NCBI GenBank assembly: GCA_021819035.1
Contig: JAKASL010000001.1
Location: forward strand, 124,001 to 188,000
Length of the DNA stretch: 64,000 nt
Source: an archaeon
GTDB taxonomy: Archaea > Thermoproteota > Nitrososphaeria > Nitrososphaerales > Gagatemarchaeaceae
Direction: 5' to 3'
Within the stretch, counting starts at the first letter, position 1. Every line of letters starts with the position of its first letter. The position numbers were made by a program, and so were the translations under genes. The notes under the pieces are model-generated. The model made no database searches. It was given only the letters and a program-made list of their open reading frames with translations, and had not been told where the DNA came from. This document shows, in pieces, positions 981 to 14,316 of the stretch.

Positions 981-1790
981 CTACCACTTCATCGCTTCCT
1001 CAACAGCTTCGTCGAACGCTTTTGGGGCTGTAAGATTCAGCAAGTGGTCTGCGCCTGAGACCACCCGCATCTTGGCGCCGGGGACATAATTCGCCAAGTA
1101 GCGAGCTATGTGCGGCTGAGCAGGGTTGTCACGGTCTCCGACGAGGATTAGTATGGGTATGTTGAGGTTGGACAGCTGGGTCGCGGCTTTGGGTTCCACG
1201 GGGAGTTCGTGCTGGCCGGAGCGGTCCAGGAAGACTTCGTCCGAGTTCTTGCGCACCATGGCCCGAAAGAGTTCGAGGTCCTTCCCTTCGAGTGCGGCTC
1301 CCCACAGCCCGCGGAGATGTTCGATCGCTTCGTCGACCTTCCCTGCCTTGTACGCCTCGTAGGCCGCCTTGGACGCCCTCTCGTCGACGTTGAAAACCCC
1401 TTCTGGGAACATCGGGTAGTCCATCCCCGAGAAGCCGGGGGAGACTAAGAGAAGCCCCCGTACCAAGCCAGGGTGAGCGATCACGAAATCCAGGGCTATC
1501 CTTCCTCCAATGCTCGGCCCTACGATGAGGGGGCGTTCGAGCTTCAGGTGGTCCAAGATCGCTTTGAGATCATCGATTGATGAGAACGTCAGTTCCGCGG
1601 GAGTGGACCCGCCGTACCCCCGAAGGTCATAGCGTACCACGCGGTGGCTTTTGGCAAGGGCGGGGAACTCCCGGTCCCACAGTCTTCGGTCGGTTATCCC
1701 TTCGTGGATTAGAACGATTGAGGACACTCCCTCGGGCCCGGCGACGTCGTAGGCAATCTTTCCGCCAGGGACTTCTAGGAACTCTGCCAT
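981..1790 (-). CDS. alpha/beta-hydrolase
   Basis: About 269 residues of a standard alpha/beta-hydrolase fold. The oxyanion strand contains HEGITD, the nucleophile elbow is GPSIGG (Ser near residue 92), the acid region is VGDRDNPAQ and the catalytic His is in GADHLLNL. The order and spacing fit a functional Ser-Asp-His triad. The family hydrolyses esters, lactones or similar small substrates, and the substrate here cannot be told. An upstream GTG (1796) is possible, but ATG at 1790 is preferred. It diverges from the acetyltransferase at 1855, sharing a short promoter region. Confidence 0.85.
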   Translation of the reverse strand: MAEFLEVPGGKIAYDVAGPEGVSSIVLIHEGITDRRLWDREFPALAKSHRVVRYDLRGYGGSTPAELTFSSIDDLKAILDHLKLERPLIVGPSIGGRIALDFVIAHPGLVRGLLLVSPGFSGMDYPMFPEGVFNVDERASKAAYEAYKAGKVDEAIEHLRGLWGAALEGKDLELFRAMVRKNSDEVFLDRSGQHELPVEPKAATQLSNLNIPILILVGDRDNPAQPHIARYLANYVPGAKMRVVSGADHLLNLTAPKAFDEAVEEAMKW

Positions 1791-1854
1791 CGCCACGTGA
1801 CCTCGTTTTGGAGGCGAACCCAGCTATATATGCAAGCCCTTCAACGCGGAGACG

Positions 1855-2448
1855 ATGGCTCTCACGTCGAAGCCGCTCACGGCCAAGACATGGCCCGCCT
1901 TTGCCCGACTCGTGGAGAAGCACAATGGGATTTTCGGCGGGTGCTGGTGCATCTCCTATCATCTTAAGCCAGGGGAGAAGAGACATGGTTACGCGGCATA
2001 CAAAGCGATGAAGAAGGTCCTAGTCCGGCAAGGGCAGGCGCACGCCGCGCTCGTCTTTGACGGCCAGAACGCAATTGGGTGGTGCCAGTTCGGCCCCACC
2101 GCGGAACTCCCCAACATTCGGAGCAAGAAGGTCTACGAGGAGGGACTGCGCAAGCTTCCAGACTGGCGCATTACCTGCTTCTTCATCGACCGGGAACGTC
2201 GAGGAGATGGCATTGCCACTTTCGCTCTCCGCGAAGCGCTTCGATTTATCGCTCAATCCGGCGGCGGAACGGTCGAGGCTTATCCAGAGGACTACACCGG
2301 GGAGAAGACTTCCAATTCGTTCTTATGCAGTGGCACCTTGGGCATGTTTGAGAAGATCGGGTTCAAGAAGGTGCGTAAGATTGCGACGCGTAGGTGGGTC
2401 GTAGCACGCAGGATTTCCCCCGCTCTGCCGAACGGGAACGGTGCTTAA
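1855..2448 (+). CDS. GNAT-family N-acetyltransferase
   Basis: A 197-residue protein. The middle part reads like the GNAT acetyl-CoA core: a beta-strand (ITCFFIDRERRGDGIATFAL) in which RRGDGIA is the Q/RxxGxG/A pyrophosphate-binding loop. It is followed by a helix and a late strand ending near FEKIGFKKVR, the typical C-terminal GNAT signature. The N-terminal GGCWCISYH segment resembles GNATs that modify small molecules. The acceptor is unknown. A TATA-like ctatatatgc at 1822-1831 lies about 25 nt before the start, consistent with near-leaderless transcription. Confidence 0.8.
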   Translation: MALTSKPLTAKTWPAFARLVEKHNGIFGGCWCISYHLKPGEKRHGYAAYKAMKKVLVRQGQAHAALVFDGQNAIGWCQFGPTAELPNIRSKKVYEEGLRKLPDWRITCFFIDRERRGDGIATFALREALRFIAQSGGGTVEAYPEDYTGEKTSNSFLCSGTLGMFEKIGFKKVRKIATRRWVVARRISPALPNGNGA

Positions 2449-2611
2449 CTCACGCTTCGTCGTAGGCTGAACGAATCATGGTCCGGCACAATTCCCGTCC
2501 TATTGAACATAGCTTCGAATGCGTTGGCGCGTAAATAGCGAAAAAAGAGAATGTGGAGAGGCTGTAATGTGACGATGCTGCACTGTGCCAAGGCTCCGGA
2601 CCCACCCGCCC

Positions 2612-2693
2612 CGAATCCTCGTCAAGGAGGCCAAGGGTTTGGGCCGGAAAAATCGACGAATCAAGTGGTCGAACTCCTTCGATAAGCCCAAAT
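2612..2693 (+). repeat. dispersed tRNA-acceptor-like element, copy A (degenerate)
   Basis: Member of a five-copy family in this window. It contains AGGAGGCCAAGGG, then TTGGGCCGGAAA, a central ATCGACGAAT...AAGTGGTC segment and a 3' arm ending in GCCCAA. The 3' arm is mutated (TTCGATAAGCCC instead of TTCCGGCCC), so the terminal stem is partly lost. It lies in the 270-bp gap before hicB, and no protein-coding gene is evident in that gap. Confidence 0.6.
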
Positions 2694-2718
2694 AGACGGG
2701 TCCAATAGAACAGGTCGT

Positions 2719-2988
2719 ATGACGCTTCAGGTGCCCGTTCCGGTCCTCATCACGAGGGAGGGCAAGTGGTTCGTCGCGTCCTCACCGATTCTCGACGTCG
2801 CGACTCAGGGCAGGACCGAAAAGGAGGTCAAGGAGAATCTGGCAGACCTGATCAACGAATACCTCAGGGATCCAGATACCCGAAAGCCGTCTCTAGACGA
2901 GCTGATGTCGCTCACCCTGGCGAACATCCCTGTACGCATTCCGGAAAGCATACTCCATGGCAAGACTGCGTCCTCTCCCTCGTCGTAA
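2719..2988 (+). CDS. hicB: HicB-like antitoxin
   Basis: An 89-residue HicB-type protein. The N-terminal half (VPVPVLITREGKWFVASSPI) is the partial RNase-H-like fold typical of HicB, followed by GRTEKEVKENLADLINEYL, the conserved helix. No separate DNA-binding tail is evident beyond residue ~75. In this order (antitoxin first) the last 32 bases overlap the hicA start, a translationally coupled type II toxin-antitoxin pair. HicB binds and neutralises the HicA RNase. Position and sequence agree, so the call is firm although the biological target is not known. Confidence 0.85.
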   Translation: MTLQVPVPVLITREGKWFVASSPILDVATQGRTEKEVKENLADLINEYLRDPDTRKPSLDELMSLTLANIPVRIPESILHGKTASSPSS

Positions 2989-3172
2989 GGTAGTCGACAT
3001 TCTGAAGGCGAACGGGTTTGAAGAGGTACGGTCCGGGAAGCACGCCACCTTCAAGAAGAAATTAGGAGACCGGGTCCTGACGACTTGGGTGCCCCACCAC
3101 GGCGAGGTCACCATCTTCGTGATCCAATACATCATCAAACAGGCAGAGAAACAACGCACGGAATTCGAGTGA
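2957..3172 (+). CDS. hicA: HicA-like mRNA interferase toxin
   Basis: A 71-residue protein with the small dsRBD-like HicA fold. It begins RPLPRRKVVDILKANGFEE and contains SGKHATFKK, where the His is the known catalytic residue of the family. It then has WVPHHGEV and a C-terminal helix IQYIIKQAE. HicA proteins cleave mRNA and tmRNA, and here it is coupled to the upstream HicB through a 32-bp overlap. Length and motif are intact, so the toxin should be functional. It is flanked on both sides by copies of the dispersed tRNA-like element. Confidence 0.88.
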   Translation: MARLRPLPRRKVVDILKANGFEEVRSGKHATFKKKLGDRVLTTWVPHHGEVTIFVIQYIIKQAEKQRTEFE

Positions 3173-3282
3173 AGGCCGTAAGGATTGCAGCGCGTGGGTG
3201 ACTAAATACGGGCCGCAGAGTTAGGTAGCTGTTGAGTTCACCGGCACTGCTCGGTGCCATGCCTTCGAGTCCTCATCGACTC

Positions 3283-3357
3283 GGTTCGTGTCAGGGAGGC
3301 CAAGGGTCTGGGCCGGAAATATCGCGATGTGAAGTGGTCAGGCTCCTTCCGGCCCAT
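3283..3357 (+). repeat. dispersed tRNA-acceptor-like element, copy B
   Basis: The best-paired copy. GGAGGCCAAGGG is followed by TGGGCCGGAA, a ~30-nt centre (ATCGCGATGTGAAGTGGTCA) and TTCCGGCCCA, which is the perfect 10-nt reverse complement of the left arm. The arms look like a 7-bp tRNA acceptor (GGGCCGG/CCGGCCC) with discriminator A. The element lies in the hicA-methyltransferase gap. The gap from 3173 to 3440 holds nothing else recognisable. Confidence 0.7.
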
Positions 3358-3440
3358 ACTAACACCCATGTGAATCCGCAAAAAGGGCGCTACGAGACCC
3401 AATCTTAACGGAGCACAGATGGACAAACAGATGATCGTGT

Positions 3441-4028
3441 TCACGATGCGTGAAAAACGCGAGAATTTGGCACGGCGCGAGGGACTTGCATGCATAGGAG
3501 ACCGTAGTGGAAAGGCCCTGCGTCGACCCTCTTGAGCACCTCGAAGCTGTTTTCCGCAAATATTCGCCTGGACTCGACTTCGGTGAGCGTGATTTCTGAC
3601 GGCGGCCCGAACGTGCTGTCCTCCTTCTTCCAGTCGATGCCCACGGCAATCCCGTCTGGCTTCATGATTCTAGCGACCTCCCTCAAGAAAGCGCCATTGT
3701 CTCTTATGTCGTGGAGGACGTTGGCGAAGAAGGCCATGTTGATCGAAGCATCCGGGAGCGCGGTTCTCGCCACGTCTGCCTCCGTAGCCACGACCGTGCT
3801 TTCGACCGCACCGTGCTGCTTCAAGTTCTCCCTCAGGCCTTGAAGTATTCTGGAATCATGGCCGATTGCGTATGCCTTCCCTCTCTCTCCTATGGCCTTC
3901 GAGAAGGGAACAGTGAAGAATCCGTTCCAGCGGCCCAGGTTGGCGACCACAAGACCGGCCCTGACCCCAATTTGTGCGTGGATTTGCCCCGGGTTCTGCA
4001 TCTTTCGTTTAAGCTCAAACGTTGGCAT
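3441..4028 (-). CDS. class I SAM-dependent methyltransferase, degenerate motif I
   Basis: About 195 residues starting at MPTFELKRKMQNP, the usual start of a group of small archaeal methyltransferases; an upstream ATG at 4112 would add an unlikely Arg-rich tail. The Rossmann order is visible: VVANLGRWNGFFTVP (motif I), YAIGHDSRIL (motif II), the acidic TEADVA, and MAFFANVLHDI (motif IV region). Motif I normally reads D/E-x-G-x-G-x-G. Here the acidic residue and two glycines are replaced (N-L-G-R-W-N-G), and the motif II acidic residue is also unclear, so SAM binding may be weakened. The downstream neighbour is a transporter pseudogene, which suggests local decay. Confidence 0.6.
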   Translation of the reverse strand: MPTFELKRKMQNPGQIHAQIGVRAGLVVANLGRWNGFFTVPFSKAIGERGKAYAIGHDSRILQGLRENLKQHGAVESTVVATEADVARTALPDASINMAFFANVLHDIRDNGAFLREVARIMKPDGIAVGIDWKKEDSTFGPPSEITLTEVESRRIFAENSFEVLKRVDAGPFHYGLLCMQVPRAVPNSRVFHAS

Positions 4029-4145
4029 GGCGTGAAATCCTTCTTCGCCCTTTCTGTTCCGAAGGCGCGAATGCGACGACAACGTTCTTCCTCTACTGAC
4101 TCGGAATCGCATCCGGAAAGGTTTGTCGGTGGAGCAGGATTGTCG

Positions 4146-4650
4146 TCAGAACAGGGCCCTCTTCTTTTTTGTCGAAGACTTCGGCATGAAGAGGAAAGCG
4201 GTTCCCACTACGAAGATCAGCACTATCATCAGGTAGAAGCTCGTGGTCAAACCCGAATAGTCGTTCAGTGCGAGCAAGCCAACTACCGCTGGTCCAACTG
4301 CCATTCCTCCCTGGCTGCCTAACCCTCAGACCACCGAATTAGCTGTGGAAGAGGGCCCTTGGACGTAGTCCTGTATGATCAAGAGTAACTGCGGGAATCC
4401 GGAGAATGTGAAGAAACCAAAGACACCGAGCATGACCAAGGCTTCCATTCCCATTGTGTTGATGTACCCGACGATGGTCACCGCAGTACGGAATGAAGTG
4501 AGAGACAGCGGGATTTTCTTGTCGAACTTCCTTGTAAGATAGCCGAAGACTGGCGGCCCAGGATGCGCCTCCGATTCAATCGCCCTGGCCCCCGACATCT
4601 CCGGAGCGTCTGTCGTCAGGCGGACCAACCAAGGGATTGCTCACAGCCGT
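4146..4650 (-). pseudogene. MFS transporter C-terminal remnant with in-frame TGA
   Basis: The minus strand encodes several transmembrane segments typical of major facilitator proteins: GPPVFGYLTRKFDKK (the conserved loop between helices), then PLSLTSFRTAVTIVGYI and LVMLGVFGFFTF. A TGA at 4326-4328 interrupts the frame exactly after TANSVV. The same frame then continues as GLGSQGGMAVGPAVVG and a further membrane helix to a stop at 4146. A single TGG-to-TGA change explains the break. The N-terminal half of the family is absent. Readthrough or sequencing error cannot be excluded, but the missing N-terminus argues for a true pseudogene. Confidence 0.65.
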
Positions 4651-4670
4651 GCTGCCACGCATGTCTCCGC

Positions 4671-5753
4671 CTAGGGTATGATTTCACAGCCGTTATTGAA
4701 TACAGGATACTTGAAGTCAGACAGCTTCACAACTCCGTGCTCGGCGAAAGCTTTTACACGCGGTTGGGCTTCGCGCAGCTCCTTCACCAAGTGCTTCACT
4801 GTGGTGCAGATTAGAGAATAGCCGTCCTGTCGTAGCAGATGTTGTGACCTGTTGACGAACAGGCACCTGCCCCCGCAGACGTCTATGATGTCGCACGACG
4901 AACAGGGATCACCAACGGTTGCAACATCGCGGAGAGATGCAGGGGTGTTTCTGAAAATGGAGCCGACTATGGAAAAATCGAAGTCGACCGAGACCGGGCA
5001 AACGGAGACTCTTCCGTCGGGCAGAACCGAAAAGAAATCAAGGCCTGAGCCGCAACGCAACCTGGCTTTCTCGCCCGACAACAGCGATTCCATGACTCCT
5101 ATGAACGGAACCATGCCCTCGACTCTGCCCGCACGCTCCATCTCGTCCACCCACGAGTCCACCAGTGAGGAGATTCCAGAGTTGTATTTCGCGACCCACT
5201 CCTGGATTCCCGGTTCGGTGTATTCTCCTGCTTCCCAGAACATCCCGAAGTCGAGCTGCCAGTGCACATGGTCGAACAGCCCAGAGCGCAAAAGGTGCCG
5301 CACATTCTCCTTGATGTCGGTCCCCTGGGCCACGGTCATCCTTGCCACCAGGTCCCCCCTAAACCCTCTCCTTCTGATTAGCTCAACATTGCGCACCACG
5401 CGCTCGTAGACCCCCTTCCCCCTCTGCCTATCTGTGACTTCCTCTGTCCCGTCTATCGAGACGAGGACCGTGCTGAGCTTCGAGAGATACCTCGGCTCGA
5501 CCCTGTCTAGATGAATCCCATTCGTCTGCAGCACGAAGCGCCCGGGCATCTCGTCCATCATGGCCTGCATTGTTCCAACACGCAGAAGGGGCTCCCCTCC
5601 ATAGAACTCGACTACCGGGTTTCTGTCCTGCCTCAAGAACGACCCGAGTTCGGCCGTGGAGTACTGGATTTCCTTGGGAGGGGTGTCACTCCCACCTCCG
5701 CAGTACTTGCAAAGCAGATTGCATTCTTTCGTCAGAATCACGTGATAGTGCAT
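4671..5753 (-). CDS. radical SAM protein, putative peptide-modifying type (AF1577-like)
   Basis: A 360-residue radical SAM enzyme. The CxxxCxxC cluster motif is near the N-terminus (CNLLCKYC, residues 11-18), followed by EFYGGEPLL (the GGE motif). The C-terminal third has extra Cys groups (RCGSGLDFFSVLPDGRVSVC, then PCSSCDIIDVCGGRC), which resemble a SPASM-like auxiliary Fe-S domain. This layout matches archaeal radical SAM proteins annotated as putative peptide modifiers (AF1577 family), from memory and not from a search. No small precursor-peptide gene is obvious next to it. A TATA-like ccttataatc lies just upstream on the minus strand (5784-5793). Confidence 0.75.
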   Translation of the reverse strand: MHYHVILTKECNLLCKYCGGGSDTPPKEIQYSTAELGSFLRQDRNPVVEFYGGEPLLRVGTMQAMMDEMPGRFVLQTNGIHLDRVEPRYLSKLSTVLVSIDGTEEVTDRQRGKGVYERVVRNVELIRRRGFRGDLVARMTVAQGTDIKENVRHLLRSGLFDHVHWQLDFGMFWEAGEYTEPGIQEWVAKYNSGISSLVDSWVDEMERAGRVEGMVPFIGVMESLLSGEKARLRCGSGLDFFSVLPDGRVSVCPVSVDFDFSIVGSIFRNTPASLRDVATVGDPCSSCDIIDVCGGRCLFVNRSQHLLRQDGYSLICTTVKHLVKELREAQPRVKAFAEHGVVKLSDFKYPVFNNGCEIIP

Positions 5754-5835
5754 GCTTCGGGGCTGATTGGATTTAGGGGTTTTAGATTATAAGGTGTTTC
5801 CCAATGAAAGACCCGCGGTGAGGTCCAATCGGGCC

Positions 5836-6072
5836 CTAGGATGCCACCATGATGACTTTGTTCCTCGCCCTGGCGCCGCTCACTAGCGCCAGCTCCGATT
5901 TCGGGACGTCGAGATAATCTGACATAATTTCTAGGAGCCTTCTGTTGGCCCTTCCGCGTTCTGCCGTTTCGTCGACCCGAACTTCGAAGGTCTCGTCGTC
6001 TATCTTGACCACGTCCGCCTTCCTGGCTTTCGGCACCGCATGGACTTTCAATAGCAGGGTGCGCCATCCCAC
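5836..6072 (-). CDS. DUF167/YggU-family small protein
   Basis: A 78-residue protein. KVHAVPKARKADVV, EVRVDETAERGRANRRLLEIMSDYL (central helix region) and SGARARNKV follow the DUF167 pattern (VxPxA/S-x-x-x, then A-x-x-G-x-A-N, then SG-x-x-x-x-K). The protein is full length for the family, whose biochemical function is not established. It is encoded downstream of the RelE-like fragment on the same strand. The start at ATG is supported by the conserved first beta-strand beginning directly after it. Confidence 0.8.
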   Translation of the reverse strand: MGWRTLLLKVHAVPKARKADVVKIDDETFEVRVDETAERGRANRRLLEIMSDYLDVPKSELALVSGARARNKVIMVAS

Positions 6073-6225
6073 TCGCCTGCCTTCTGTAAGACTTTTGGTG
6101 GTTTCGCGGTGCCGCCACTTTTGGAGTGATTCCCAAATGGCCCATGATGCAGTCCGTTCGACAGGCGAGACTCGGGCGGCACCATTCCAGATGACGGCCC
6201 AAGCCCTGGAGATTCGCTAAGACGA

Positions 6226-6360
6226 TTAAGCAAATCTCTTCAGCTTCACGACATCTAACAACCTGGAGGGCACCGGGTCTTCCTCCAGTGCTAGAATCGC
6301 ATCTCCGACCGCCTTCTTCCTTTCGGGTCCAGCATTTCCGCTGTTCGGAGTGCGCGACGT
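6226..6360 (-). pseudogene. RelE-like toxin fragment (tentative)
   Basis: Immediately after the stop of the small gene at 6361, the same frame continues as PERKKAVGDAILALEEDPVP followed by DVVKLKRF and a stop. This resembles the central helix and the KLKG turn of RelE/ParE toxins, which normally continue with a YRIRVGDYRIIY strand that is missing here. There is no usable start codon. It looks like a remnant truncated at both ends. The call rests on a short similarity and is weak. Confidence 0.3.
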
Positions 6361-6555
6361 TTAATCGCTATAGCGAACGCCAAGGGCACCCATTAGCTCT
6401 CTTTCTGTGGCTAGGTCCCTCCCCTTGATGGCTTTCTTCTCAGCGGCAGTCGGTTTGTCAACGGGGATGACTCTGCCCACTAGCTCTTTGTAGAGCACCA
6501 TCCGCTCTCGTACTTCCTCTTTTATCTCGTGCAAGGTCTGATCCGCCTTGGCCAT
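6361..6555 (-). CDS. small hypothetical protein, possible antitoxin remnant
   Basis: A 64-residue charged, helix-rich protein beginning MAKADQTLHEIKEEVRERM. No family recognised. It ends directly before, and in frame with, the RelE-like fragment, the position an antitoxin would occupy, but no antitoxin fold is identifiable. Composition is plausible for a real short protein. The 250 bp upstream (6556-6806) show no further gene. Confidence 0.4.
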   Translation of the reverse strand: MAKADQTLHEIKEEVRERMVLYKELVGRVIPVDKPTAAEKKAIKGRDLATERELMGALGVRYSD

Positions 6556-6806
6556 CTGGCGATTCTGATGCTCCTTCCGTACATTAATGCATATCAGGTT
6601 GAGTGCGAAGTAACGGAAACGGAAGGAAGCTCGCCTGCGCCAGCCTACGCCCTTCGGGCTCGGCAGGGAGGGAGAGAGAGTTGGGGTCCGATCGGGAACT
6701 GGAGAAAACTTGGCGCTTGCACTGTCGAATGGAACCGAGTACGTCCTTGTTCGCTACCGAGTCTAGGACCTGTGATAACAGGCCCCATGCAAGAGTAACG
6801 GAAGAA

Positions 6807-7277
6807 TCAACACTGTAGCATGCAAGTGCTCACAGTCGATGAGCTCTGACCAGAGGGTATGTGAATCGTAATCCATACCAACTGTTGTGGCTCGACGCTG
6901 ACGGAGACGGTGTAATTACGGTTACCCTGAGTCACAACCAAACTGTACTTCCCATCATAAGAGGGTTGAATGTTGACCGTTCCGCTAGCTGGTACAACTA
7001 GATTGTATATGGGGGTAATCATGGTACCGTTGCCGCACTCCACCGAAACAGTTCCAGATATTCTTGCTCCATCGACTGGCAACCCAGAGTCATTCAGCAC
7101 AGTCGCGCGCAGACTGCCAATAGAACCAATTTGTACACACGTCACTTGTGTGGTGTTCCTCAGGTCAGGGACTACAAAGAACGCCACGAGCGCGGCGACT
7201 AGGACTATTGCAACAACTCCGATAACAGGGAACAGCCGAATTCTCTGGGGTCGCCCAGAGTTCTTTGAGGCCAACAT
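6807..7277 (-). CDS. membrane-anchored extracellular protein with Ig-like/carboxypeptidase-regulatory-like domain
   Basis: A 156-residue protein. A short basic start (residues 1-14) is followed by one long hydrophobic helix (IGVVAIVLVAALVAFFVVP, residues ~19-37) and then an outside domain rich in V, S, T and N with several N-x-S/T sequons. The segment SLRATVLNDSGLPVDGARIS resembles the first strands of carboxypeptidase-regulatory-like or bacterial Ig-like beta-sandwich domains. Cys pairs near residues 48 and 80 and at the C-terminus (CMLQC) could form disulfides. The function is unknown. The gap up to 7660 contains dispersed repeat copy C. Confidence 0.6.
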   Translation of the reverse strand: MLASKNSGRPQRIRLFPVIGVVAIVLVAALVAFFVVPDLRNTTQVTCVQIGSIGSLRATVLNDSGLPVDGARISGTVSVECGNGTMITPIYNLVVPASGTVNIQPSYDGKYSLVVTQGNRNYTVSVSVEPQQLVWITIHIPSGQSSSTVSTCMLQC

Positions 7278-7452
7278 AACAGAGCCATCACGACAGAATA
7301 CAAATGCTTTATGTCCGATAGATAGATTTTATGTGGCCGGGAGAACTATCTAAAGTAGCCTAGACCGAGCTCTGTTAGGCGACGTTATCGGCAATCCTAT
7401 CCGATGTCGATCTATAACCCCGTTCGGTGCCAAAGGCTCGTACCCACCCCGT

Positions 7453-7550
7453 CTCGAACCCTTGTCAGGAGGCCAAGGGTCTGGGCCGGAAAACTAGACG
7501 AGTGAAGTGGTCAGGTTCCCTCCGGCCCATCTTGAAAATAGCTCAGAGTG
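7453..7550 (+). repeat. dispersed tRNA-acceptor-like element, copy C (with tRNA-Ile downstream flank)
   Basis: The core AGGAGGCCAAGGGT-CTGGGCCGGA...TCCGGCCCA has a 9-bp perfect terminal stem, and the centre contains GAGTGAAGTGGTCAGG. It continues as CATCTTGAAAATAGCTCAGA, which matches the sequence just beyond the tRNA-Ile gene (CATTTTGAAAGTAGCCCAGA, from 739) in 17 of 20 positions. The left part (GGAGGCCAAGGGT) matches tRNA-Ile variable-loop/T-stem sequence. This copy therefore carries tRNA-Ile-locus sequence on both sides of a ~35-nt insert. Confidence 0.7.
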
Positions 7551-7661
7551 CACGCGTCCTCCCGCGTCCCCGTCCATGGGATTGGTTGGGCACTTCAAAT
7601 CGGCAATAGTAGCTATCCTGATTGGTGGTTATATACGACCAAGGCGTAATTTTTACGAGAC

Positions 7662-7904
7662 ATGGCCGAGAAGATTCCTGGCTGGCTTCAGAAGGTGCTT
7701 ATGCCGCAGATAGGCGAGGTGAAAGGCGAACTGAAGGCGATGAACGCAAGAATGGAAGGTGATTTCAAGGTGCTCCATTCAGAAATCAAGAGGGTGGAGG
7801 AGACGCTCGGCACGAAAATCGACGAACTGGACAAGCGTATGGACGTAACCAGACGCTTGGCCGCAGTCGAAGAGCAGGTCAGGGAGCTGCGCGCCAAGGC
7901 CTAG
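7662..7904 (+). CDS. small coiled-coil protein
   Basis: An 80-residue protein beginning MAEKIPGWLQKVLMPQ, then almost entirely heptad-like helix (residues 17-78). The run IKRVEETLGTKIDELDKRMD is typical of a family of short archaeal coiled-coil hypotheticals of unknown function. A TATA-like ttatatacga lies about 30 nt upstream (7629-7638). The coding call is supported by the promoter, clean length and heptads. No partner is evident; it is flanked by two copies of the dispersed element. Confidence 0.65.
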   Translation: MAEKIPGWLQKVLMPQIGEVKGELKAMNARMEGDFKVLHSEIKRVEETLGTKIDELDKRMDVTRRLAAVEEQVRELRAKA

Positions 7905-7954
7905 CTTGGGTTGCCTGGCAGAACTTCTCTGCGGCTTGCCAAACACTCCTGTCT

Positions 7955-8058
7955 GGTTCGAGCTCGGTCCTCGTGGAGGGGCCAAGCACCTGGGCCGGAA
8001 GTGTCGGGATGTGAAGTGATTGGGTTCCTTCCAGCCCATCTGAAAATAGCTCAGAGTG
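7955..8058 (+). repeat. dispersed tRNA-acceptor-like element, copy D
   Basis: GGGGCCAAGCACC is followed by TGGGCCGGAA, a centre containing GGGATGTGAAGTGATTGGG, and TTCCAGCCCA. The terminal 10-bp stem has one C-A mismatch. The copy continues as CATCTGAAAATAGCTCAGAG, the same downstream flank seen in copy C and at the tRNA-Ile locus. It lies only ~50 bp after the coiled-coil gene. Confidence 0.65.
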
Positions 8059-8182
8059 AACTTTATTAGGCAAATGCGAGTTGATTCTGACTATCTCGAA
8101 TGTGTACGTCGACGCCTCGGAGAATCTGCAATGTGGGAATGACGTCCTCAACTAGATGGAAAGCACATGGATTACGAAGAGC

Positions 8183-8821
8183 TTATTGCACATATCCGCA
8201 CTGATGTACAACCGGACCCGCGACGCCAGGACCACAGGCAACTACCACGACATCCATGTTGCTTACTCCCACGATTTGAAACGTCGGGAGGGTCGAATAC
8301 AGGGTGGGACTGCAAAGTGGAATCTCGCTGCGTGAGATATCGTTAGGGATTGGTCCAATAACCAAGGGAATCCATTCGCAGCCTCCGATCGCCATCCAAT
8401 AAACCCCCTGGGCTGCTCCTTTGGACGCCGATACGGTGTAGGTCGCTGTGACGTTAGTAGCTCCATGGTAAGAGACCGATATTGGAGAGACCGATGCGTT
8501 GATTCCGGCACACCCATTGTTGCATGTAACCAAGGTTCCGTTCTCCCCGATGTAGGACGAGATGCCGGCTGCGAAATTCCAACTTTCGTTGCTCTTGTTT
8601 CCGTTCGCCGGGAGAGCCCAAACGACGCATAACTTCGACTCGGAGGGGGCAGACAAAATGAACACATCGGAGTAATTCACGTTAGAAGGTTGCGGACTGA
8701 CTTGGTCTGCACATCCAGAACCTGCGGTTACCTGACTCTCGGCGCGGCCGAAGAAGTATCCGGCCCCCACACCAGCCACGATTAGGACAACTATCAGCGT
8801 GGCTACAAACTCGTTTTTCAT
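8183..8821 (-). CDS. membrane-anchored extracellular protein of unknown function
   Basis: A 212-residue protein with an N-terminal signal-anchor (residues 7-25, VATLIVVLIVAGVGAGYFFG). The exported region is rich in S, T, N and V with several N-x-S/T sites and six or more cysteines (for example CNNGCAG), so disulfides are likely. Beta-rich; no domain recognised. The layout resembles the protein at 6807-7277, though the sequences are not obviously homologous. It may belong to a surface-exposed accessory set. Confidence 0.6.
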   Translation of the reverse strand: MKNEFVATLIVVLIVAGVGAGYFFGRAESQVTAGSGCADQVSPQPSNVNYSDVFILSAPSESKLCVVWALPANGNKSNESWNFAAGISSYIGENGTLVTCNNGCAGINASVSPISVSYHGATNVTATYTVSASKGAAQGVYWMAIGGCEWIPLVIGPIPNDISRSEIPLCSPTLYSTLPTFQIVGVSNMDVVVVACGPGVAGPVVHQCGYVQ

Positions 8822-8863
8822 GCCCTCCGCTAGATTGTTTGGCTGAATATACGCCTAATCATA

Positions 8864-8953
8864 GCACCTGCTTCGGATTCGAACCGAGGCCATTAACGGG
8901 AAGGGGTTCACTTAGAGAACTACGCTCATCCGTTCAGCCCGCCCCCAGGTCGC
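8864..8953 (-). pseudogene. tRNA-like sequence, possible tRNA-Leu pseudogene
   Basis: On the minus strand, acceptor halves GC(G)ACCT and AGGTGC pair if one base is bulged. A T arm TCGG-TTCGAAT-CCGA is intact, and an anticodon-like hairpin GTTC-TCTAAGT-GAAC would give TAA. The ~90-nt length with a long variable segment suits a Leu/Ser-type tRNA. The acceptor bulge, C at position 33 and a poor D arm argue that it is not functional. Confidence 0.4.
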
Positions 8954-9154
8954 TGTGAACCCGCTTTGTTGTTCCACACGTGATTCATGGATGAAAAGTC
9001 CTTCCGGCAGTACATATTCTCTATGCTATCAAGTAAACTGATTGATGCTTCGGCGCCAGTTGACACCGGTCAGCCAAACCCGTGATATCAATCACCGCTG
9101 ATTCTGAACCTCCAACATGCCCTTCGGCTCCCCTCGGGAGTAGACCAATTCGGA

Positions 9155-9170
9155 ACCTTTATATGACATT
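9155..9170 (+). promoter_or_regulatory. TATA box and operator-like half-site of the mercury cassette
   Basis: CCTTTATATGACAT: the TTTATATG lies about 30 nt ahead of the ATG at 9191. The half-site TGACAT at 9165-9170 is mirrored by ATGTCA at 9191-9196, an inverted pair flanking the predicted transcription start. Autoregulation by the ArsR-type product is a reasonable inference. Confidence 0.45.
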
Positions 9171-9190
9171 GATTACATATGACGTTCATG

Positions 9191-9514
9191 TCAGACAAGG
9201 TTGTCGAGATCAAGTCCCACGTGGTCCTTTTTCAAGCCCTTGCCAGCCCTATGCGAGTACGCATACTCCACGCGCTTCGCGAACCAGCTATGAGTCTAAC
9301 GCAGACCAGTGATGAAGCTGGTGTGAAGCAGACGAACGCCTCCCACAACCTCCGGCGTCGCGTGGTCTGCGGGTTGATTACAGTAGCGCGACTGGGGAAG
9401 TCTAGAATCTATTCCTTGAGCAAAGAAACAGTCTTACCGATCTTGGAAATCATGGCGAATCATCTGCGGAAATCTGCCGGCAGCCTCCCGAACTCCGACT
9501 TGCTGGAAAGGTAG
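9191..9514 (+). CDS. ArsR-family winged-helix regulator of merA
   Basis: About 107 residues starting at MSDKVVEIK; an ATG 12 nt earlier (9179) is possible, but the TATA spacing favours 9191. LFQALASPMRVRILHALREP is the classic first helices of ArsR winged helices. The recognition helix lies around VKQTNASHNLRRRVVCGLI and the wing around RLGKSRIYSL. Only one Cys (in VVCGL) is in the core, so it may not sense metal through the usual Cys cluster. It ends 2 bp before merA, so it almost certainly forms one transcript with it and controls it. Confidence 0.85.
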   Translation, partial: SDKVVEIKSHVVLFQALASPMRVRILHALREPAMSLTQTSDEAGVKQTNASHNLRRRVVCGLITVARLGKSRIYSLSKETVLPILEIMANHLRKSAGSLPNSDLLER

Positions 9515-9515
9515 A

Positions 9516-10937
9516 ATGAACATGAAAGATTACGATCTGATTATACTTGGACAGGGTTCGGCAGCGTTCGCGGCCGCCATCAAGGCTGATGAGCTCGGCA
9601 TCAAGACCGCGATGATTGGCGGAAACGCGACCTCGGGGGCGACAGTTGGTGGGACATGCGTCAACGTGGGCTGCGTGCCGAGCAAGAACTTGATCACCGT
9701 CGGAAACGCGTTTCATGGGCTGACTCAATCTTCCTTCGGCGCCATCCACTATGGCAGGACCAGGCTTGACTTCAAGAAAGCGATAGAGGAGAAGGATGCC
9801 TTGGTGGAGAGGTTCAGGAATGAGAAATATGCCGACGTCCTCAATGGTCTGCAAAATGTCGAGTATGTGCCAGGGGTGGGACGTTTCGTTTCCAGGAAAG
9901 AGGTGAAGGCTGGAGACACGGTTCTCAAAGCGAAGAAGTTCCTGATAGCCACTGGAGCTAGGGCCAAGGTGGTCCCAGTGAAAGGCGTCGGTGGGGTAGG
10001 ATACCTCACTAACGAAGAGGCGCTCAGCCTGAAGAAACTTCCTCGTTCAATGATCGTGGTGGGCGGCAGGGCGCTTGGATTAGAATTTGCGCAGATGTAC
10101 GCGCATTTCGGGACAAAGGTGACCGTCCTCCAGCGGAGCGATAGAATCCTGCCTGAGCACGAGCCAGAAATCTCGAGTGCACTGAAGGGATACCTGCAAG
10201 ACGAAGGCATCGACATACAGACAGGAGTTAAGCTCACGGAGGTCGTTCAGAGGGGAGAAATGCGAGTCGTCCGCTGCACGGTGAAAGGCAATGAGAAGGT
10301 GTTCCAGGCTGACCAGCTGTTGTTCGCTTCTGGGAGGGTTCCCAATACCGATTATCTCTCTGCCGACAAGGCGGGGGTTGAGCTCGATTCTCGTGGCTTC
10401 GTGAAGGTCAATGATGAAATGCACACGCGGGCTCCTCATGTCTGGGCTGCTGGGGACGTAATCGGAGAGCCGATGCTCGAGACAATCGCGGCGAAGGAAG
10501 GTGCGGTCGCAGTAAACAACGCTTTCGGAGAAGGCAAGAAGAGGATTGACTTCAAGGAGGTCCCCAATGCCGTGTTCACATATCCAGAGGTGGCGAGCGT
10601 GGGGCTAACAGACGCCCAGGCCAACGAACAGGGGATCAAGTGCGCCTGTGGTGTTCTACCTCTGGATATGGTCCCGAAGGCGCGCATCATGGGAGACACA
10701 AGGGGACTGATAAAACTCGTAGCCGACAGCAGGACAAAGCGAGTGGTGGGCTTGCATATCCTGGCTCCTCACGCGGCAGACCTTATCCACGAAGGCGTGT
10801 TGGCAGTGAAGTTCAGACTGACCATAGACGACATCATCGACACAGTCCATGTCTTCCCGACGCTCTCCGAAGCGGTCAAGCTGGCTGCCCAGTCGTTCTA
10901 CAGGGATGTGGGGAAGATGAGTTGCTGCACCGAGTAG
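9516..10937 (+). CDS. merA: mercury(II) reductase
   Basis: A 473-residue flavoprotein disulfide reductase that reduces Hg(II) to volatile Hg(0) with NAD(P)H. FAD-binding GQGSAAFAAA, the redox pair C48/C53 in GGTCVNVGCVPSK, and the FAD-closing motif HVWAAGDV are all present. The C-terminal vicinal pair C470-C471 (MSCCTE) distinguishes MerA from lipoamide dehydrogenases. There is no N-terminal heavy-metal-associated (NmerA) domain, as in many archaeal and short MerA proteins. A purine-rich ggaaaggt precedes the ATG. The regulator upstream and small Cys proteins downstream support a resistance cassette; no organomercurial lyase or transporter is seen. Confidence 0.93.
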   Translation: MNMKDYDLIILGQGSAAFAAAIKADELGIKTAMIGGNATSGATVGGTCVNVGCVPSKNLITVGNAFHGLTQSSFGAIHYGRTRLDFKKAIEEKDALVERFRNEKYADVLNGLQNVEYVPGVGRFVSRKEVKAGDTVLKAKKFLIATGARAKVVPVKGVGGVGYLTNEEALSLKKLPRSMIVVGGRALGLEFAQMYAHFGTKVTVLQRSDRILPEHEPEISSALKGYLQDEGIDIQTGVKLTEVVQRGEMRVVRCTVKGNEKVFQADQLLFASGRVPNTDYLSADKAGVELDSRGFVKVNDEMHTRAPHVWAAGDVIGEPMLETIAAKEGAVAVNNAFGEGKKRIDFKEVPNAVFTYPEVASVGLTDAQANEQGIKCACGVLPLDMVPKARIMGDTRGLIKLVADSRTKRVVGLHILAPHAADLIHEGVLAVKFRLTIDDIIDTVHVFPTLSEAVKLAAQSFYRDVGKMSCCTE

Positions 10938-11062
10938 AGTCACCTGAATCAGCCGACAGGCGGCTAAATCCGCGGTCTTCGTTCTAAGAAGTGGTTTCAA
11001 CGGTTTGTTTAAGTGTCGAACGACATTTCTCAAATCCGCTCGGGTTCTTGTATTCCCCTGAG

Positions 11063-11227
11063 GTGAAGGAAATCCAAAAACAGGTAGTGAAACAGTATTG
11101 CGGACTGACCTTCGAGGACAACTCCTCATTCAGGGAGCACCTAAAGGAACGCGAGCTAGAGCCTTGTTGTGCATGCGACTACGCTGAAGTCCTGTCACGG
11201 TCTTTCGAATTCAAGATGACACCGTAG
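11063..11227 (+). CDS. small Cys-pair protein downstream of merA
   Basis: About 54 residues if translation begins at GTG 11063 (TTG at 11048 or GTG at 10991 would lengthen it). It contains a central LEPCCACDYAEV motif with vicinal cysteines followed by another Cys, plus one Cys at YCGLTF. No family recognised. Vicinal Cys next to merA suggests metal binding or delivery, but this is inference. A TATA-like tttgtttaag is at 11003-11012. Length and charged composition are plausible for a real gene. Confidence 0.4.
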   Translation: MKEIQKQVVKQYCGLTFEDNSSFREHLKERELEPCCACDYAEVLSRSFEFKMTP

Positions 11228-11350
11228 TCACCTATCTCAGACCGCTGCGGCTTGGTGCCGTAGCAGAGGGTCTACGGGCTAGGCGCCGTAGCAGGGGTCG
11301 CGGTCTGTTTCGTCTTCTTCATCCTTCTGGCCAACGGCTTCGCTTCGAGC

Positions 11351-11647
11351 ATGGACATGACCCTCATGGGGATGGGAACTACGATGACTGGCGGGGTTTT
11401 ATTCGGCCATCTGACTTTCGGCCTCATCCTTGGAGGGGTGACCTCTGCGGCTGCCCCGAAGGAGACGTCCTCCTACCAATGCCCAACTTGCGGCGCCAGC
11501 TTCGAAACAAAGAGTGGACCCATCCAACACGGGAAGTCGCACACGTCAGGCACGACAAAGCAAAGGTCCGAGTGTCCCACATGCGGGGCGACATTCGCCA
11601 CTCAGCAAGAGCTGATGGACTACAAGGCGAAGGCCTACCCTAAGTAA
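11351..11647 (+). CDS. membrane protein with C-terminal C2H2-like zinc finger
   Basis: A 98-residue protein. A Met-rich start (MDMTLMGMGTTMTGG) leads into a hydrophobic segment LFGHLTFGLILGGVTSAAA. Then comes one zinc-finger-like unit YQCPTCGASFETKSGPIQH and a second, degenerate one (ECPTCGATFATQQELMDY) lacking its histidines. Open frame continues upstream to about 11270 with another hydrophobic stretch (VAGVAVCFVFFILLANGF) but no start codon, so the N-terminus may have been lost or recoded. A 20-bp imperfect direct repeat (around 11250 and 11282) lies just there. A role with the mercury genes is only suggested by position. Confidence 0.6.
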   Translation: MDMTLMGMGTTMTGGVLFGHLTFGLILGGVTSAAAPKETSSYQCPTCGASFETKSGPIQHGKSHTSGTTKQRSECPTCGATFATQQELMDYKAKAYPK

Positions 11648-11655
11648 GTGAAGGA

Positions 11656-11685
11656 GAGATGAGACGGGCTCATCTCACCCTTTTT
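11656..11685 (+). terminator. hairpin plus T-run terminator
   Basis: A perfect 8-bp stem GAGATGAG-ACGGG-CTCATCTC is followed within 5 nt by TTTTT, 9 nt after the stop of the zinc-finger gene. It looks like an intrinsic-type terminator closing the mercury cassette. Downstream to 11955 no gene is visible. Confidence 0.6.
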
Positions 11686-11954
11686 GTTTCAGATTCTCGG
11701 AATTCATTTACTTTGATCAGACGCGCGGACTCTTGCTGCGGCGAGTAGGGCTGCAAGCCTGCTTCTTCGTCGCATGAACACCACAGAAGTATGACAGAAG
11801 TCATCTGTCGGTGTCGCAGCAGCACCTAACTTACCGCCATCCTTCGACACACTCGGAGGATTCATCTGTGGCGGTCGGATGAGGGCCGCTGCACCGGGGA
11901 GATTGGATGAGGAGGTTCGTAAAGAGAGAAGGAAGACCCGGCTGTGGGAGCGAC

Positions 11955-12242
11955 CTAGCAACACTGGCTGCCGCTGGCCTGCTGAACTAATGGGATACGA
12001 GAATTCTCGCTTCCTAATCCAAGGTCCTGAGCAGTTGGGAGCCTCCCTGTCGACTTCTTCGAGTAAACGACTTGGTCGTTCTTCTTGACTTCGAAGGACC
12101 CGGCTTCACCCGGTACAAGCGTCAGCGAAAGACTCTCGTCATGGGGGTTCGTTTCAAGAAGGCTCTTCGCAAGTGCGAGAGCGTCTCCTAGGTAGCATCC
12201 CACACAGAACTGCATTTCGTATTTGACGGTGTTGTTGGACAT
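11955..12242 (-). CDS. SelW/Rdx-family thioredoxin-like protein
   Basis: A 95-residue protein with the selenoprotein-W-like layout. A first strand ends in FCVGC (redox CxxC near residues 13-16, Cys in place of Sec), followed by helix LGDALALAKSLL. Then LSLTLVPGEAGSFEV and VVYSKKSTGRLPTAQDLG are the conserved second half of Rdx proteins. The family is linked to thiol redox chemistry; substrates are unknown. It is transcribed divergently from the HxlR regulator, with an AT-rich promoter between them. The extra C-terminal tail ends in QCC. Confidence 0.8.
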   Translation of the reverse strand: MSNNTVKYEMQFCVGCYLGDALALAKSLLETNPHDESLSLTLVPGEAGSFEVKKNDQVVYSKKSTGRLPTAQDLGLGSENSRIPLVQQASGSQCC

Positions 12243-12261
12243 CGAACTGTGCTACAGATTT

Positions 12262-12276
12262 CAAAGTATTTATACT
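12262..12276 (+). promoter_or_regulatory. TATA-like element in the SelW/HxlR divergent region
   Basis: AAGTATTTATACTAT lies between the divergent SelW-like (start 12242) and HxlR (start 12330) genes. It is partly palindromic (AGTATttATACT), so it could be a TATA box overlapping an operator for the HxlR protein. Confidence 0.4.
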
Positions 12277-12329
12277 ATGAAGTCCGAAGTATTGGAGGCA
12301 CTTTGGAGAATCGAAGTAATGGAACAAAC

Positions 12330-12713
12330 ATGACGTACTGCATGTGCGCGCTCAATGGAACGATGGATCTTCTTGGAAGGAAGTGGGTTCTCTTCGCTAT
12401 CAACTCGATAGGAAACCATGGCTCAGTGAGATTTACGGACCTCAACAGGGAACTTAGGGGGGTGTCTCCTTCTACACTCGCATGGATATTGAAGCAACTC
12501 GAGCAGATAGGGGTCATCAAACGCAAATCGTTCGCAGAGATTCCTCCAAGGGTCGAATATTCTTTGACATCGAACGGGAAAGACCTCAGGACTGCGATAA
12601 TCCCTCTTTTGCTTTGGGCAGCAAGGCAGGATGATTACCCAATGAAGGTCGAGGGTTGCGAACCCTGTCAGTATGTCCAAGTGAGCGGCGGAGGCCGTGG
12701 CCTAACTCCATAG
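12330..12713 (+). CDS. HxlR-family winged-helix regulator
   Basis: About 127 residues from MTYCMCALNG; an earlier in-frame ATG at 12249 would overlap the promoter. The HxlR signature is clear: DLLGRKWVLFAINSI, VRFTDLNRELRGVSPSTLAW with KQLEQIGVIKRK, then EIPPRVEYSLTSNGKDL. Two cysteines at the start (CMC) and a C-terminal CEPC pair could sense thiol stress as in Cys-based HxlR proteins, and its divergent neighbour is a CxxC Rdx protein. Control of that neighbour is likely but inferred. Confidence 0.85.
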   Translation: MTYCMCALNGTMDLLGRKWVLFAINSIGNHGSVRFTDLNRELRGVSPSTLAWILKQLEQIGVIKRKSFAEIPPRVEYSLTSNGKDLRTAIIPLLLWAARQDDYPMKVEGCEPCQYVQVSGGGRGLTP

Positions 12714-12844
12714 GCGTCCCTCTCACCTTCTGCGAACGTATTCTCAAGGCTGCCACATTCGTTGCTGTGCGGGCCGAAAAAACATGAGATTCCTAGTTAA
12801 GAGGCGGGGGTTTGTATGTTGGCAGACTAATACTCTCTAACATA

Positions 12845-12902
12845 GGAGGTCAGTGGCCTGGGCTGGAGAAGTCGACGAACGATGTGGCCCTGCTCCGGCC
12901 CA
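12845..12902 (+). repeat. dispersed tRNA-acceptor-like element, copy E
   Basis: AGGAGGTCAGTGGCC leads to TGGGCTGGAG, a centre GTCGACGAACGATGTGG, and CTCCGGCCCA; the arms form a 10-bp stem with one G-T pair. The acceptor-like halves GGGCTGG/CCGGCCC are identical to those of tRNA-Ile. It lies in the ~500-bp gap 12714-13218, in which I see no gene. Confidence 0.6.
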
Positions 12903-13218
12903 GTTTCTGGAGGAACTGATTGGTCCGGGGCTCCCATCCGTTACACCTATCTGCTCGCATCTATTTCTTCGGTCTGATTATCTGGAGGTACACCTCCTTA
13001 CCTCCCGAAGCTCGTTTGATGTCTCCCCTACTCACTTCTGGCGCTCTGATCGTTGTCCCGCACCGCAGCTCGGATCGACAGGAGGAACTAAATCCGGCTA
13101 AACGATGGTCCTGCTAGACTTGCGAAACCCGGAGCGTTAGAAAAATCAAGCCTGATGACGAAGGCGGTCAGGGCGCTGGAAGTCATGCACACGACTCCGC
13201 AGTCCTGATGGCGGTGTT

Positions 13219-13824
13219 CTATCTCATTTCTAGAAGTGACGTTTCGAACGCTACAGACCTCCTCGGGTCGGAAGCGTAGATTACCGACTGGTGGTTCTCC
13301 AATAGCCCTCTAATCCAGCGGCCCCTTCTTGACTGCTCTATCCTTCTGACGTCGTAGAAACAGAGGAGCCCTATCCCGAATTCCTCGAAGTGGTCGTTAC
13401 CGACCTTCTCGAACTCCATCCCTTGGCTCATCCCCTCAATCGATTCGGTGTCAGATATAGTCCTCCCGACAAACCTGAATGGACCTCTCATCCCCTTGGT
13501 CGACTCGGCCACCAACGCCCTTTGAACGTCCAACGCGTCCACCTTGCCGGCGGCCGTGCGCGGAGTTTGGAAGAATCGAAAGTGGTTTCCAGCCTCGAAC
13601 TCTCCGACATCAATCCCTAGCACAGCTAGCTTCTGCCTGATTGGAGTCGGCTCCACCTCAGTCAAGAAAACACAGGACTCTCCCTTCGCTAATCCATCCG
13701 CGAAATAGCGCACGATGAAGAGGTCCGCTTGTTTCTCGTCGTCATACAGCATCACCACGTGCCTGTTTCTTCCCAGCCGGCTAAGGAAACCCAGCGGTTG
13801 GTAGCTCGATGCCGTGCTGTTCAA
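13219..13824 (-). CDS. MEDS-domain sensor protein
   Basis: A 201-residue MEDS (DcmR-type sensory) domain. NRHVVMLYDDEKQADLFIVRY (residues ~20-40) and AKGESCVFLTEVEP (near 51-64) are the family opening, followed by a RecA-like alternation of strands and helices to the end. This class is common in archaea with a signal-sensing role; the ligand is not known. Its start overlaps the stop of the upstream winged-helix gene by 4 bp (ATGA). The two products therefore probably work together, with MEDS as sensor and the winged helix as DNA-binding partner. Confidence 0.8.
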   Translation of the reverse strand: MNSTASSYQPLGFLSRLGRNRHVVMLYDDEKQADLFIVRYFADGLAKGESCVFLTEVEPTPIRQKLAVLGIDVGEFEAGNHFRFFQTPRTAAGKVDALDVQRALVAESTKGMRGPFRFVGRTISDTESIEGMSQGMEFEKVGNDHFEEFGIGLLCFYDVRRIEQSRRGRWIRGLLENHQSVIYASDPRRSVAFETSLLEMR

Positions 13825-14117: not shown

Positions 14118-14200
14118 GGATAATCATGTTCTGGTTTCGACGTAATAAAAACTCCCCAAGGGGCGGAACCGATTATATCTGGTGGACCGCCTCCATTGAT

Positions 14201-14314: not shown

Positions 14315-14316
14315 AA

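Follow-up and report, generated by a model that had tools for sequence, protein, structure and literature searches.

What are the short repeats that recur downstream of a tRNA gene in an archaeon of the family Gagatemarchaeaceae, and how did they come to lie there? We studied a stretch of 64,000 nucleotides (the window, G000:C3:124001-188000, numbered here from its first letter) of a genome of 1.67 Mb in three contigs, referred to as our own genome or G000. An earlier note, made from the letters of the window, had described five copies (A to E) of an element with tRNA-acceptor-like arms, and had suggested either a structured RNA or something like a miniature inverted-repeat transposable element (MITE) or a short interspersed element (SINE). 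Comparison with relatives leads to a different answer: the copies are very probably attachment (att) sites of mobile elements that carry a tyrosine recombinase and insert at the 3' end of tRNA-Ile(GAT). This reading is carried by an exact pair of occupied and empty sites (G004/G000), diverged pairs of the same kind, an integrase gene next to the tRNA, integrase remnants next to repeat copies, and boundaries of gene units that fall at the core of the repeat.

Occupied and empty sites at tRNA-Ile(GAT)

The features on which the comparison rests are as follows.
649..742, strand +: tRNA-Ile(GAT) with a non-canonical intron, the predicted target attB, unoccupied in our own genome (Rfam match 650-741; relatives)
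742..1022, strand +: downstream flank of tRNA-Ile, displaced by a ~68.5-kb insertion in G004 (100% identity after the G004 right junction)
743..14932, no strand: the whole island; the G029 homolog of window 14933-15180 begins about 35 bp past the tRNA-Ile end
L064:7191-8765 (G004), L089:1513-2931 (G025), L090, L091, L092: related diverged integrases

ARAGORN labels 649-742 tRNA-Ser(GCT); we read it as tRNA-Ile(GAT) because of its CTGATAA anticodon loop and the calls in relatives. The intron lies in the D region, and the same Ser(GCT) mis-call occurs in four relatives.

The clearest case is G004. Its contig C68, when reverse-complemented, starts with window 602-742 (141 bp, 100%) and ends with window 742-1022 (281 bp, 100%), with ~68.5 kb between the two flanks. 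The tRNA is intact on the left, and a repeat copy runs up to the start of the shared flank on the right. The repeat is thereby identified as attR, left by an insertion at the 3' end of tRNA-Ile. G004 and G000 thus form an occupied/empty pair in which the tRNA is kept intact, the pattern of a tRNA-targeted tyrosine-recombinase element. The diverged comparisons G025/G005 and G000/G029 agree with it. In G025, four diverged core copies lie ~41-43.6 kb beyond tRNA-Ile and its integrase, and past the last of them the sequence matches the flank of tRNA-Ile in G005 (80.5% identity, 529 bp). That G005 flank also has a match in G032 (81%, 526 bp), on the far side of a repeat copy and an integrase remnant that sit ~4.4 kb past the tRNA-Ile of G032. 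In G029, the sequence from ~35 bp past tRNA-Ile matches window 14933-15180 (71%) and 16840-17084 (82%), beyond the array, so that ~14.2 kb, all five copies included, separate the tRNA from its old flank in G000. The G029 and G028:C11 loci are 100% identical over 603 bp and were counted as a single observation. G028 carries two differing tRNA-Ala/tRNA-Ile loci on C1 and C11 (92% and 84% to the window), one flank being identical to that of G029; this assembly is probably mixed.

A tyrosine integrase gene stands beside the junction in both G004 (524 aa) and G025 (472 aa). The G004 open reading frame (ORF) begins ~35 bp past the tRNA and matches PF00589 at E=1.2e-3, below the cut-off, and a PHROG integrase at 5.5e-5; a 472-aa homolog matches PF00589 at 6.2e-7, above the cut-off, and a profile of six of these proteins matches XerA 5hxy in PDB at 1.7e-5. 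The G025 ORF is 57% identical and lies directly after tRNA-Ile. By these matches, the 524-aa ORF is predicted to be a diverged tyrosine recombinase. The aligned integrases share an invariant H-x-x-R-type H379/R382 and G404-H405; the N-terminus is longer in three members of the family, and one member has a weak winged helix-turn-helix match. Integrase remnants start about 40 bp (G033) and 35 bp (G032) past repeat copies in two other genera, and the spacer from core to integrase keeps CCAGCxCA...TTxG in 4/4 loci compared. In genomes of other families, the integrases of G058 (L114) and G049 (L091) start just past what appear by eye to be other tRNA 3' ends (GGGTTCAAATCCCACCGGGCCCGCC and AGTTCGAATCTGGGCGGGGCTACCA), and the integrase family may switch tRNA targets; ARAGORN called no tRNA upstream of either gene, and G058 (integrase 48%) has no second copy of its putative tRNA 3' end in the 35 kb examined.

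The cargo of the G004 insert, for which 20 of the 73 called ORFs were scanned against Pfam, is that of an integrative-conjugative element (ICE), with a conjugation ATPase, a coupling protein and pilus genes. It comprises a VirB4/TraG-like ATPase (AAA_10/TraG), a type IV secretion system coupling protein (TraG-D_C/T4SS-DNA_transf), T2SSE and T2SSF, together with a UvrD-PDDEXK helicase, hydrogenase/complex-I-like and antiporter genes, a QueC-like gene and, near attR, DUF5131.

The repeat family, its hairpin and its likeness to tRNA-Ile

The copies in the window are listed here with arm and core named as the attachment-site reading would have them; T-arm mimics are matches to the T-arm of tRNA-Ile and are treated in the next section.
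2585..2680, strand +: copy A, att arm ending in core CCTTC (2676-2680); T-arm mimics 2587-2599, 2630-2642
3254..3356, strand +: copy B, att arm and core CTCCTTCCGGCCCA (3343-3356); T-arm mimics 3256-3268, 3299-3311
7427..7529, strand +: copy C, att arm and core TTCCCTCCGGCCCA (7516-7529), then tRNA-Ile-flank-like sequence; T-arm mimics 7429-7441(+), 7454-7466(-), 7472-7484(+)
7936..8038, strand +: copy D, diverged att arm and core TTCCTTCCAGCCCA (8025-8038), then tRNA-Ile-flank-like sequence
12835..12902, strand +: copy E, most diverged, with shortened core CTCCGGCCCA

All five copies are where the earlier note had placed them, on one strand; A-D form a single direct-repeat family, to which alignments add E. 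Their extent had been underestimated, as homology begins ~45 bp further upstream, about GTGCCAAGG (at 2585 in A, 3254 in B, 7427 in C and 7936 in D), giving an element of ~105 bp. Both arms, TGGGCCGGAA...TTCCGGCCCA, are complete in B; C and D come close to this, E has altered arms and A broken ones.

The covariance model and scan of relatives that the earlier note had proposed were carried out with a model, R1, built from A-E and a sixth copy, F, at G000:C3:557273, ~420 kb further on the same contig. The six full matches in our own genome are thus by construction; the scan of that genome gave no further full copy, the next best match (E=1.07) being the reverse strand of F. R1 carries an RNAalifold consensus helix (six copies; 1 covarying pair of 16), a structure that we do not believe and that differs from the acceptor-like hairpin; it was used solely for building R1, and the later set of 22 copies was read by sequence. 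R1 recovers copies in G004 (E=4.2e-20), G018 (1.1e-17), G028 (3.6e-16) and G033 (9e-13), and because these were not used in building it, the family is not a product of chance, as the earlier note had argued. Among relatives, R1 gave 49 matches at E<=0.1, 24 full-length and 25 short (42-45 nt). Absence from relatives, which the earlier note had named as grounds for giving up its claim, is not what we found: full-length copies occur in 13/37 family genomes at this threshold (our own and a weak match in G015 counted) and in 10/46 family genomes at E<=0.001. None was found in 24 genomes from other families of the order (E<=0.1, stricter large-search filters). These counts are lower bounds, since R1 missed the diverged copies of G025 at E<=0.1, which were detected by a core search allowing <=2 mismatches. 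The exact pattern GAGGCCAAGGGTYTGGGCCGG had no match in a viral collection and matched 8 stretches in genome contigs, 4 in archaeal bins and 4 in bacterial contigs. The archaeal records include the Nitrososphaerota/Nitrososphaerales metagenome bins FK5_bin.27, FK2_bin.84 and A_CRE_07; our guess is that the bacterial ones (Paracoccus, Planctomycetota, Pseudotabrizicola, Rhodobacteraceae) are chance.

Is the hairpin formed by the two arms a structured non-coding RNA with a tRNA-acceptor-like stem? Over 18 copies, 89.1% of cells in TGGGCCGGAA/TTCCGGCCCA pair, and sliding the partner by 1-3 columns lowers this to 22-53%; copy C has a better fold than 196 out of 200 shuffles (z -2.30). However, the pairing exceeds the slid controls because both arms are conserved, and the sign of compensating change is absent: covariation scores 0.137 against 0.139 in shuffles, pairing is 89.1% against 89.0%, and 1 of 10 hairpin pairs has changed on both sides. 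The C-to-T change in copy E, which had been taken for covariation, is a one-sided G-U change; ungapped, the innermost pair can be read as A-U to G-C. The folding z-scores of A-E (-1.17, -0.64, -2.30, -0.28 and -1.16) are unremarkable except in C, and Rfam at gathering threshold reports four tRNAs and no other family in the window. The 3' arm, moreover, varies with the unit on its right (GATAAGCCC, AGCCCACC, CGGCTCGAACC), and the repeat is an exact junction in G004. We therefore rejected the RNA explanation, which is highly improbable; the 3' hairpin arm is the right half-site placed by recombination. A MITE was rejected as well, as terminal inverted repeats are not present at both ends: copies A, F and G018b differ in their right halves, and the break falls at the tRNA core. 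The mobile-element origin and the tie to a tRNA that the earlier note had in mind survive in spirit, with the copies being sites of site-specific recombination in place of a MITE or SINE.

The tie to the tRNA can be made precise. R1 matches window 700-744 as the repeat minus ~30 nt, and 16 short R1 loci scanned with ARAGORN gave 10 calls of Ile(GAT), 4 of Ser(GCT) and 2 without a call at the place. As these short loci align as the repeat without ~30 nt, the outer parts of the repeat are similar to two portions of tRNA-Ile, the variable loop with the 5' side of the T-stem, and the 3' side of T-stem and acceptor. What had looked like a pair of acceptor arms is thus, on the 3' side, the target tRNA's own 3' end, which attP and attB would have in common. 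Such an alignment of the tRNA-Ile 3' part to the copies across a ~30-nt gap, together with the downstream flank that C and D share with tRNA-Ile, might instead point to decayed tRNA-Ile pseudogenes or fragments from local duplication. The copies that we inspected by eye lack the tRNA 5' half and the anticodon arm, though, and a three-site arm architecture is common across genera, integrase remnants follow copies in two genera, and the genes after the copies differ; this origin can hardly be the right one. The flank-like stretches, similar to TGAAAATAGCTCAGAGTG, lie at 743-765 (after tRNA-Ile), 7530-7547 (C) and 8039-8060 (D), and also after the G028 and G033 copies; they may be a conserved tRNA flank or a right att arm.

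Gene units between the copies and the architecture of the arm

Divided at the core, the array gives the following units.
2681..3349, strand +: unit A-B, left half-site GATAAGCCCA, HicB (2719-2988), HicA (2957-3172), copy B arm
3350..7522, no strand: unit B-C, methyltransferase (3441-4112, -), radical SAM (4671-5753, -), block about 6238-6664
7523..8031, strand +: unit C-D, 80-aa coiled-coil-like ORF (7662-7904)
8032..12896, no strand: unit D-E, ArsR-type regulator (9179-9514), mercuric-reductase-like flavoprotein (9516-10937), HxlR regulator (12249-12713)

Judged from alignments, the repeats look to mark off discrete gene blocks, some swappable-looking, e.g. toxin-antitoxin pairs. Homology between genomes breaks at the core, and for HicAB the break lies inside CCTTC. 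The 200 bp to the right of the A core are 96-97% identical in G018 and G029, whereas the left arms are 77-81% identical; for comparison, paralogous arms within G000 are 60-78% identical. At the right end of the unit, the arms of B and G018b share 91% identity, with no alignable sequence past CCTTC. HicA matches PF07927 at 4.6e-10; HicB has no Pfam call and is named by position. The unit probably entered a pre-existing array site and not the tRNA, since a left half-site reading GATAAGCCCA would leave tRNA-Ile with a spoiled acceptor. The G018 unit that follows HicAB contains a MazE/AbrB-type antitoxin (PF04014 2.9e-4, below cut-off) and a PIN toxin (PF01850 4.1e-12). Copy D compared with G028 shows the same kind of contrast (right side 89%, arm 61%). 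G033, of another genus, has the coiled-coil ORF of unit C-D at 80%, again with a repeat copy on either side; the half-site comparison there has 2 aligned bases on the left. Genes of unit B-C lie next to the tRNA in other genomes: a radical SAM homolog begins ~32 bp past tRNA-Ile in G001, and the block at about 6238-6664 begins ~0.25 kb past tRNA-Ile in G028 C1. Window 7980-11028, in unit D-E, is 93% identical in G028. Within it, the ArsR-type regulator and the flavoprotein (9179-10937; a C-terminal Cys pair by eye) are 93% identical in G028 and 77% identical in G033, in an orientation opposite to the repeat copy there.

The arm itself resembles the target. The 5' motif of the tRNA-Ile T-arm, GCCAAGGGTTCGA, has 51 matches in 22 copies against 1.4 expected (<=3 mismatches, both strands; expectation from Markov-resampled sequence), the set being the 24 full copies less the second G029 copy and the weak G015 copy. 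The matches sit at offsets 15-16 (+) in 17/22, 40-41 (-) in 12/22 and 55-59 (+) in 15/22 copies, with 7 elsewhere, and those at the third site mostly have 2-3 mismatches. The result is partly circular, as site 3 lies inside and site 2 partly inside the region modelled by R1; site 1 is wholly outside it, and its presence is thus no effect of the search. The mimics are somewhat more likely than not to be integrase-binding sites that copy the target, and such an arm suggests how one integrase recognition sequence could serve both core and arm sites.

Several observations weigh against the attachment-site reading. The relatives are mostly fragmented assemblies, several of them metagenome bins, and both G004 junctions lie on one contig. 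Neither copy F nor two copies in G033 lie close to tRNA-Ile; sequence like the tRNA-Ile flank follows C and D; and D, E, G036 and G009 have no recognisable T-arm mimics (4/22). For unit C-D, identity between the end arms of G000 and G033 is 64%, which does not exceed the level among paralogs, and so this case is one of shared context and does not show that ORF and arm moved jointly. The usual tyrosine-integrase motif is GLRxS. Five related integrases read GLDES or GMDxS, and because the canonical first catalytic arginine is not evident, their predicted activity is unproven. An internal stop interrupts the G033 remnant, and that of G032 is just 46 residues long. Finally, no integrase lies beside copies A-E, and our own genome has no homolog of the G004-type integrase at E<=1e-5, for which reason the history of A-E themselves is inferred; its sole PF00589 match is weak, below cut-off and elsewhere (C1:66878).

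The surroundings of copy F have features of their own. Copy F (L015:5237-5358) runs on into a 22-bp, 86% inverted repeat ending CGAACCCTTGGCCTC, and right halves resembling that of F occur in G027 and G035. A 363-aa integrase-type ORF at L015:6085-7176, ~0.7 kb from F, matches a PHROG integrase at E=1.6e-4, has no Pfam match and differs from the G004-type integrase. A second dispersed repeat of ~75 bp is 88% identical between two L015 copies and 93% to the G004 insert near 63.3 kb. The stretches L015:2835-2912, 5384-5461, 5467-5622 and 2095-2208 comprise this second repeat and further sequence near F that matches the G004 insert at 72-78%, in one case directly before the G004 attR. It is possible that the F region is an old relative of the G004 element.

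Proposed growth of the array and relation to known systems

How would such sites have built the array? In the proposed mechanism, the mobile circle would carry a ~100-bp arm ending in TTCCTTCCGGCCCA, which corresponds, in tRNA-Ile, to the 3' strands of T-stem and acceptor plus the discriminator. Crossover would take place inside this shared stretch, and the natural breaks narrow it to CCTTC, within TTCCTTCCGGCCCA. Insertion would restore the tRNA on the left and place arm and core at the right junction (attR), with the T-arm mimics bound by the integrase. Repeated insertion and loss of the integrase gene may then have produced the array A-E downstream of the tRNA, and small integrase-less units (HicAB, VapBC-like, coiled-coil ORF) may have moved in trans between array sites, mobilised by the integrase of a resident or visiting element.

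The last step divides two accounts of the array. Under serial accretion only, the units are remnants of full tRNA-Ile elements cut down by deletion or recombination, and none moves by itself. For archaea, PMC8371274 and PMC6563490 describe tandem arrays that share a single integration site, as well as the loss of integrases, and G033 and G032 have partly deleted integrases after their copies; genes near tRNA-Ile in other genomes lie inside the array in G000, and the C-D arms have diverged as much as paralogs. Against this stand the 0.67-kb HicAB unit, 96-97% identical in three genomes with clean core breaks at its left end in all three and at its right end in two, and its half-site GATAAGCCCA, which would damage the tRNA-Ile acceptor on entry there. 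We give accretion alone somewhat less than an even chance. The other account is a tRNA-anchored cassette system, in which tRNA-Ile would be the primary insertion point of an open-ended array, and visiting conjugative elements would supply the integrase that captures and reorders, in trans, small units of gene plus att arm, often toxin-antitoxin pairs. The arm would consist of several copies of the target T-arm, so that one DNA-binding specificity would serve the chromosomal target, the arm sites and the array sites. This account we put forward tentatively, as a possibility that is rather unlikely; if true, it would be an archaeal counterpart of the integron that evolved from tRNA attachment sites.

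In either account, what looked like an RNA becomes a mapped recombination system with a target (tRNA-Ile GAT), a core (CCTTC), an arm and an integrase. The array shows toxin-antitoxin and mercury-resistance-type genes by a tRNA gene, in varying orders and contexts, and the system is a candidate builder of cassette arrays, apparently independent of integrons.

Integrons also carry toxin-antitoxin cassettes, and ICE accretion is known to yield cis-mobilizable elements (CIMEs), att-bounded segments without an integrase that stand in tandem with integrase-bearing elements. The units here are like the latter in being att-bounded and integrase-less, and unlike them in that some are very small and one is reused in three genomes. 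Could the array be a true integron, or a cluster of attC sites lacking an integron integrase (CALIN), with attC sites used by IntI in trans? Units of gene plus site in one orientation, small toxin-antitoxin units and one unit in differing contexts would fit, and archaeal integrons have been published (PMC9668308). Here, however, a tRNA-Ile 3' end serves as core and the tRNA itself as first site, and the integrase linked to the sites is a different-looking protein with an N-terminal extension and a weak match to PF00589; a true integron or CALIN is very improbable. The likeness to integron cassettes and CALINs, including the archaeal ones (PMC9668308, in part), is a loose one, a one-orientation array of genes and sites without a neighbouring integrase, and the differences are the tRNA gene as core and anchor, a site built from a repeated T-arm motif, and the lack of a known IntI, for which no directed search was made.

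The archaeal integrase literature, as far as the sections available to us go, describes disruption of tRNA-Thr (PMC3293823); arms that mimic their target, and toxin-antitoxin units bounded by att sites at a tRNA in archaea, did not turn up in that part of it. The G004 element is closest in kind to thaumarchaeal ICEs, which according to the available part of PMC6563490 (Krupovic et al. 2019) have a median size of 64 kb, a median att length of 17 bp and sites at tRNA 3' ends. It shares with them a Nitrososphaerota host, an integrase, insertion at a tRNA 3' end and conjugation-type genes, and its sizes are similar (~68.5 kb, with 13 bp by eye shared by attR and attB). Unlike in that account, as far as its available part goes, five att copies here bound integrase-less units, and the arm has several mimics of the target T-arm.

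The nearest described layout that we found, in the part of PMC3146451 (McMurdie et al. 2011) open to us, is that of the Dehalococcoides ssrA islands. These lie in tandem downstream of one RNA gene, each with a direct repeat of that gene's 3' end as its boundary and a conserved motif beside the repeat; the cargo differs between strains, and an integration module lies by attL. The Dehalococcoides islands, as described in that part, are bacterial and use a serine recombinase and a tmRNA gene, whereas the present system is archaeal, with a tyrosine recombinase, tRNA-Ile and units down to ~0.5-0.7 kb.

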